The translations under genes and the position numbers were made by a program. The notes below the pieces were generated by a model. That model was not told the DNA's origin, searched no databases, and worked only from the letters and a program-made list of their open reading frames with translations. From Rhodothermia bacterium (GTDB lineage: Bacteria; Bacteroidota; Rhodothermia; Balneolales; Balneolaceae), in NCBI GenBank assembly GCA_030427885.1, contig JAUICM010000001.1, positions 186,001 through 250,000 on the forward strand: a DNA stretch of 64,000 nucleotides, given 5' to 3'. Positions 12,428 through 13,345 of this stretch are shown piece by piece (positions within the stretch are counted from its first letter, which is position 1; every line of letters begins with the position of its first letter).

Positions 12428-12501
12428 TATTCATCATATCCCAATTTCAAGTTTAAGTTATATTCATCATATTCCTATTAAATTTGAGGTTATGATGAAT
12501 A
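12428..12501. repeat. Three TATTCATCAT-type repeats before the recombinase
   Basis: TATTCATCATATCCC (12428-12442) and TATTCATCATATTCC (12461-12475) are direct copies spaced 33 bp apart. ATGATGAATA (12492-12501) is an inverted copy overlapping the recombinase start codons. They lie in the only intergenic space between two divergent genes, so they could be recombinase-binding sites, an attI-like locus or an operator. No stronger evidence is available. Confidence 0.55.
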
Positions 12502-13345
12502 AACAAGAGTTATTAGCAAATTAGCAAAGTACAAACATCAGCTTATTCTTAAAAATTTTAGTGAGAGCACTGTTAGTTCCTATCTGGGTTGCCTGAACTT
12601 ATTTTTAAATTACATCAAGAAAGAGGAAATAGCCGAAGTAAACGGAACTGGATTGGAGAAGTATTTCTATTATTGCAAGAAGGAATTGAACTACAGCTAT
12701 TCAGCGATGAAACAGCATCTTGCCAGTCTGAAATTTCTTTACCAGGAAGTATTGAAGGAATCCATCGATTTTGACTTCAACATAAAAATGAAAAAACCTT
12801 CTACCATTCCGGAAGTGTTGTCGGTAGAGGAAGTGCAAAGGTTCTTAAATTCGTTTACTAACCTGAAACATAAAGCGATTTTTACACTTTGTTATTCGGC
12901 AGGGCTAAGGCTCGGCGAAATTCTGGCTTTAAAGATCAGCGACATTGATTCAGGCCGGATGCAGATTCGGATCCATCAGGGTAAAGGAAAGAAAGATCGA
13001 TATACCATGCTTGCTCCAAATGTTCTGAACATGCTTAGGAATTATGTTAAAGAGTATTCTCCGAAGCAGCATTTGTTTGAAGGCCAGAACGGAGGGCAGT
13101 ATTCAAGCTCATCAGTCCAAAATTTAATAAGGAAACATCGTAAGCTTGCTAACATCAAAAAGAAAGCAACGCCACATACATTGCGACATTCCTTTGCTAC
13201 TCATTTGCTCGACAATGGAACGGATATCAGGTTTATTCAGGAACTCCTCGGGCATAAACATATCTCTACCACTCAAATTTATACCCACGTTTCTACCAGA
13301 GATTTGAAAGATGTGAAAAGCCCGATCGAGAATTTGAATATTTGA
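12492..13345 (+). pseudogene. Tyrosine recombinase/integrase, frameshifted by an 8-bp tandem duplication
   Basis: From ATG 12492 the frame reads ten codons (MMNKQELLAN) and stops at 12522. An exact tandem repeat TTAGCAAA occurs at 12513-12520 and 12521-12528. Removing one copy joins MMNKQELLAK to the downstream frame and gives a continuous 281-residue protein. The downstream frame holds a SAM-like core-binding domain and a catalytic domain. Numbered from the internal ATG at 12653, Arg86 (SAGLRLGE), Lys111, HTLRH (His175, Arg178), His201 (LLGHKH) and Tyr210 (IYTHV) are all intact. A product starting at 12653 would lack most of the core-binding domain. The C-terminus recalls IntI, but the IntI-specific insert before the HxLRH box is absent, so it is Xer-like. 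Confidence 0.8.

Follow-up and report, generated by a model that had tools for sequence, protein, structure and literature searches.

Known integrons and Xer-type recombinases

Chromosomal integrons (IntI, attI, attC) are the closest described systems to the locus considered here: both have a site 5' of the integrase gene, cassettes that diverge from it, attC hairpins that favour the bottom strand, and cassettes whose ends are reverse complements of each other. A further likeness lies in integrase pseudogenes, which are frequent in chromosomal integrons, nearly one-third of canonical intI genes in one survey being pseudogenes (PMC2426708), so the breakage of an integrase gene has ample precedent. 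The integrases of the clade discussed below differ from IntI in being without the IntI-specific insertion and in forming a tree group of their own, and the core boxes of their platforms also differ, being mostly GTTG/CAAC. This additional domain has been treated as defining, and is used to detect integron integrases (PMC9668308). According to the accessible part of one study (PMC8138268), it is essential for integron function, yet incompletely conserved in an integron-like subgroup of recombinases; that part of the study ties no cassette arrays to the insertion-less members. The joint origin of the additional domain and the attC sites has been described as a chicken-and-egg paradox (PMC4792948). 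In the open-licence literature, we found no integron integrase lacking the additional domain that had been linked to cassettes.

The recombinases of the clade resemble those of the XerA/XerC/XerD type in being short two-domain enzymes; that of the present locus has its best profile match in NF040815 (XerA-type; above cut-off) and its best fold matches in archaeal Xer and XerA. The clade differs in being tied to cassette platforms and in branching separately, in the tree, from the XerC/XerD-like genes of those genomes.

An integron-like platform with a single cassette

The window (the whole 64-kb stretch of DNA analysed, from an environmental Balneolaceae bacterium) probably carries, to judge from its sequence, an integron-like platform whose integrase gene was inactivated recently. 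The disrupted tyrosine recombinase (integrase) gene occupies 12492–13345 on the plus strand (PF00589, E 1e-42). An attI-like region directly precedes it (12409–12491, plus strand); this is conserved 5' of the recombinase gene in relatives, and the conservation stops sharply at GTTG, beyond which the sequences diverge, with the cassette boundary at 12408/12409. Across that boundary lies a single gene cassette (10866–12408, minus strand), whose outward strand starts GTTGGCAAT (12408–12400) and which has an attC at its far end. Its gene (10924–12390, minus strand), divergent to the recombinase gene, encodes a 488-aa OLD-type ATPase with ATPase-Toprim_I-B as its best PADLOC match, making it a candidate defence gene. 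The attC-like hairpin is imperfect (GCCAAC ... GTTGGC; 10860–10920, minus strand) and folds better on the bottom strand (z of −4.9 versus −2.7). The nine-base cassette start, when reverse-complemented, matches the hairpin start (the R'' box, at 10912–10920) without a mismatch, an arrangement characteristic of integron cassettes. Cassettes also meet the attI-like site beside the integrase gene at a single fixed point. No Rfam family and no tRNA were detected in the window.

Complementarity between R' and R'' of 9–12 bases was found in nine of ten clade platforms. When prefixes were swapped between platforms, at least nine bases were reached in 3 of 90 pairs, and a permutation test gave a P of about 1e-5, the floor of the test. 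Two loci outside the test set-up (L052 and L053) also show complementarity, over 11 and 10 bases. (Searching for hairpins from CAAC/GTTG anchors under an energy cut-off failed to recover most sites, including the window attC, and gave way to this reverse-complement test.) Other Balneolaceae and one Fidelibacterota genome share the hairpin core unchanged, and among 394 genomes of the phylum 15 have it with up to three mismatches, a reversed control giving no matches. The core box in the window, GTTGGCA, departs from the canonical GTTRRRY/RYYYAAC; those of L052 and L106 are GTTAGGC and GTTATC. Judged by its attI/cassette/attC anatomy, the platform is integron-like.

Several further loci carry related sequences. 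In L042, the attI-like region is found again (92% identity) 3' of the recombinase gene (5930–5993), where a purC-like gene ends, and in L047 the start region of the recombinase gene has a 72% match downstream (7436–7500) beside a ClpC-like gene, perhaps a recombinase remnant. A unit of about 130 nt, comprising an attC-like stem and a 36-nt hairpin and having no ORF of its own, occurs in L044, L045, L048 and L049 at 85–99% identity, both between genes and beside the attI-like site. Beyond the clade, matches in the complementarity test were scattered, a few having TAAC-type boxes; at four loci with Bacteroidota recombinases (L065, L092, L100 and L101) there is cassette-type complementarity of 9–10 bases with TAAC boxes.

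A recombinase without the IntI-specific domain

The recombinase matches solved structures of archaeal Xer, XerA and IntI4. With the integron-integrase profile TIGR02249 it scores 213 bits, under the cut-off of 265, and the IntI-specific insertion (about 42 residues, near patch III) is absent, there being 20 residues at this place compared with 63 in IntI4. Likewise, the spacing between two motifs is 58 residues in relatives versus 100 in canonical IntI from the same order. Of the features by which IntI is recognized, then, the catalytic R-K-H-R-H-Y set is present and the additional domain is not. The tree unites 20 clade members of four phyla (100/99) and places canonical IntI and the XerC/XerD-like genes elsewhere.

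How might cassettes have come to be placed beside such an enzyme? The host genome has, on another contig, an intact full-length canonical IntI (G000:C5:529082-530026; L153 8080-17001), accompanied by its own large TAAC-type attC cassette array, which brings action in trans into consideration. The cassettes would then have been placed by the canonical IntI, which is also found in several other hosts of the clade, and the domain-less recombinase would be a bystander or a cargo gene. However, platforms built in this way are also present where the genome has no IntI match at all (G010, which is 99% complete, and G061/G128, L046), and six Fidelibacterota genomes have IntI matches below cut-off only. 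Moreover, the attI-like region is conserved beside the domain-less recombinase gene, and the core sites are unlike, being mostly GTTG/CAAC in the clade platforms and GTTA/TAAC in the canonical array. Placement by the canonical enzyme is an unlikely alternative.

Under the reading that we prefer, in which the platform has its own integrase, the cassette reaction would be catalysed by the domain-less recombinase family: the intact enzyme would attach cassettes in circular form, via their attC-like hairpins, to the attI-like site just 5' of its own gene, and the present platform would hold one such cassette, that with the OLD-type ATPase gene. On the sequence evidence, the domain-less integron-like platform seems to represent a new form of integron. 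We also incline, by a modest balance, to a wider view: that there is a second kind of integron, in which cassettes are captured by a clade of tyrosine recombinases that either never had the IntI-specific domain or lost it, in parallel to canonical integrons and with near-identical attC sites shared across phyla, its range taking in Balneolota, Fidelibacterota, Ignavibacteriota and probably Calditrichota.

A recent 8-bp duplication disrupts the recombinase gene

Near the start of the gene, TTAGCAAA is present in perfect tandem, as two copies at 12513–12520 and 12521–12528 (plus strand). The original prediction was exact in these coordinates. The frame from ATG 12492 is broken after ten codons (MMNKQELLAN), at TAG 12522–12524. 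A second frame, already open ahead of the lesion, continues without further lesion to TGA 13343–13345. With one copy discounted, the frame from ATG 12492 comprises 846 nt, which fits the 281 residues claimed for the restored protein; use of the second ATG (12495) would give 280 aa, as in most intact relatives. The six catalytic residues that had been claimed are all present (R131, K156, H220, R223, H246 and Y255 in P0001 numbering), and are invariant in 14 aligned proteins, window included. Perfect adjacent 8-mer repeats occur at one locus in the 64 kb, compared with about 1.8 expected from order-2 Markov sequence, so such a repeat is, by itself, in no excess over chance; it is noteworthy for its position within a conserved gene and its absence from all nine aligned relatives.

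The closest relatives found are Balneolaceae proteins with 69–79% identity. Homologues beginning 3' of 12528 would have spoken against the original prediction, but intact relatives (ten from Balneolaceae, together with those from Fidelibacterota and Ignavibacteriota) begin at the equivalent ATG. The intact ones among the Balneolaceae have this ATG at the counterpart of 12492 or 12495 and share the N-terminal pattern M..(K/E)..L(L/I)xKY. In the DNA alignment, the eight extra bases are private to the window. The 8 bp are thus a derived insertion that breaks the frame, and, as had been proposed, the gene resembles a recent pseudogene. Replication slippage would be the simplest route to the duplication, and the two-copy allele would be null. 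The product would be cut to ten residues, so the platform's own integrase could no longer move the cassette, leaving it immobile for that enzyme.

Several observations bear on the age of the lesion. The window copy has three private changes at otherwise invariant columns (0–9 in relatives), and its branch in the tree is no longer than those of its sisters. (dN/dS says little here, because dS is saturated in nearly all pairs.) Since the catalytic residues are also kept, the inactivation is, by these sequence measures, recent relative to divergence. Of 12 clade members from the order with at least 69% identity, two are disrupted, too few for a rate; the other (L050/L183) has a separate early lesion, a TGA at codon 4 (L050 857-878). 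The genome that carries L050/L183 also has a second, intact clade copy (L017). We found no relatives of the recombinase in IMG/VR viral contigs, and a plasmid search gave relatives of less than 60% identity only.

Could the broken gene still be weakly expressed, with translation beginning at a non-AUG codon (ATT 12512) or restarting past TAG 12522–12524? The frame is open from ahead of the lesion, and a start at ATT 12512 would give a nearly full-length protein. Nevertheless, the first ATG, GTG or TTG in the downstream frame is TTG 12653, from which about 45 residues of the DNA-binding domain would be lost, and the sequence at the lesion has no slippery heptamer (on which ground programmed frameshifting was dismissed). 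We regard continued expression as distinctly improbable.

A sequencing or assembly error, the true gene having one copy and being intact, is more doubtful still. The duplication is known from one genome only, no other genome of the window's genus having been found, and the rest of the gene is intact; but L050/L183 is likewise broken early, and an exact 8-bp duplication is an unusual base-calling error, 16 bp being spanned by any read. Least probable of all is the phase-variable switch of the original prediction, in which gain or loss of the 8-bp unit by slippage would turn the integrase off and on: copy number does set the frame in this exact tandem repeat, and the remainder of the gene is undecayed, but there are only two copies, relatives have no repeat tract at the site, and L050/L183 lost function through a stop codon. 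Low-frequency reversion through slippage might occur. For what had been termed an element, without definition, and is here an integron-like cassette platform, the pseudogene part of the proposal is supported, whereas the switch is not.

The edges of the platform

Direct repeats of 139 nt (10642–10780) and 124 nt (13361–13484), both on the plus strand and 87% identical, flank the platform. They take in the final codons and the stop of rho, and the genome has only these two copies. No matching pair enclosing the whole platform was found in the available sequence of any of eight related platforms, so the integrase does not explain the repeats, and neither does the reading preferred here. The rho 3' regions of readable relatives share no common downstream sequence. 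At the right repeat there is a half attC-like sequence (13478–13545, minus strand), with 84% identity over 67 nt to the attC of a Fidelibacterota platform (L057). The DUF6090 gene beside it (13548–14315, minus strand) is a putative cassette, possibly a stranded one.

Implications for integron biology

The broken integrase gene is in itself ordinary for integrons; the unusual part is a platform whose recombinase is without the additional domain. The existence of a domain-less clade in attI/attC platforms would make the question of how the domain and attC sites originated directly testable, and integron surveys that demand the additional domain would overlook such platforms.
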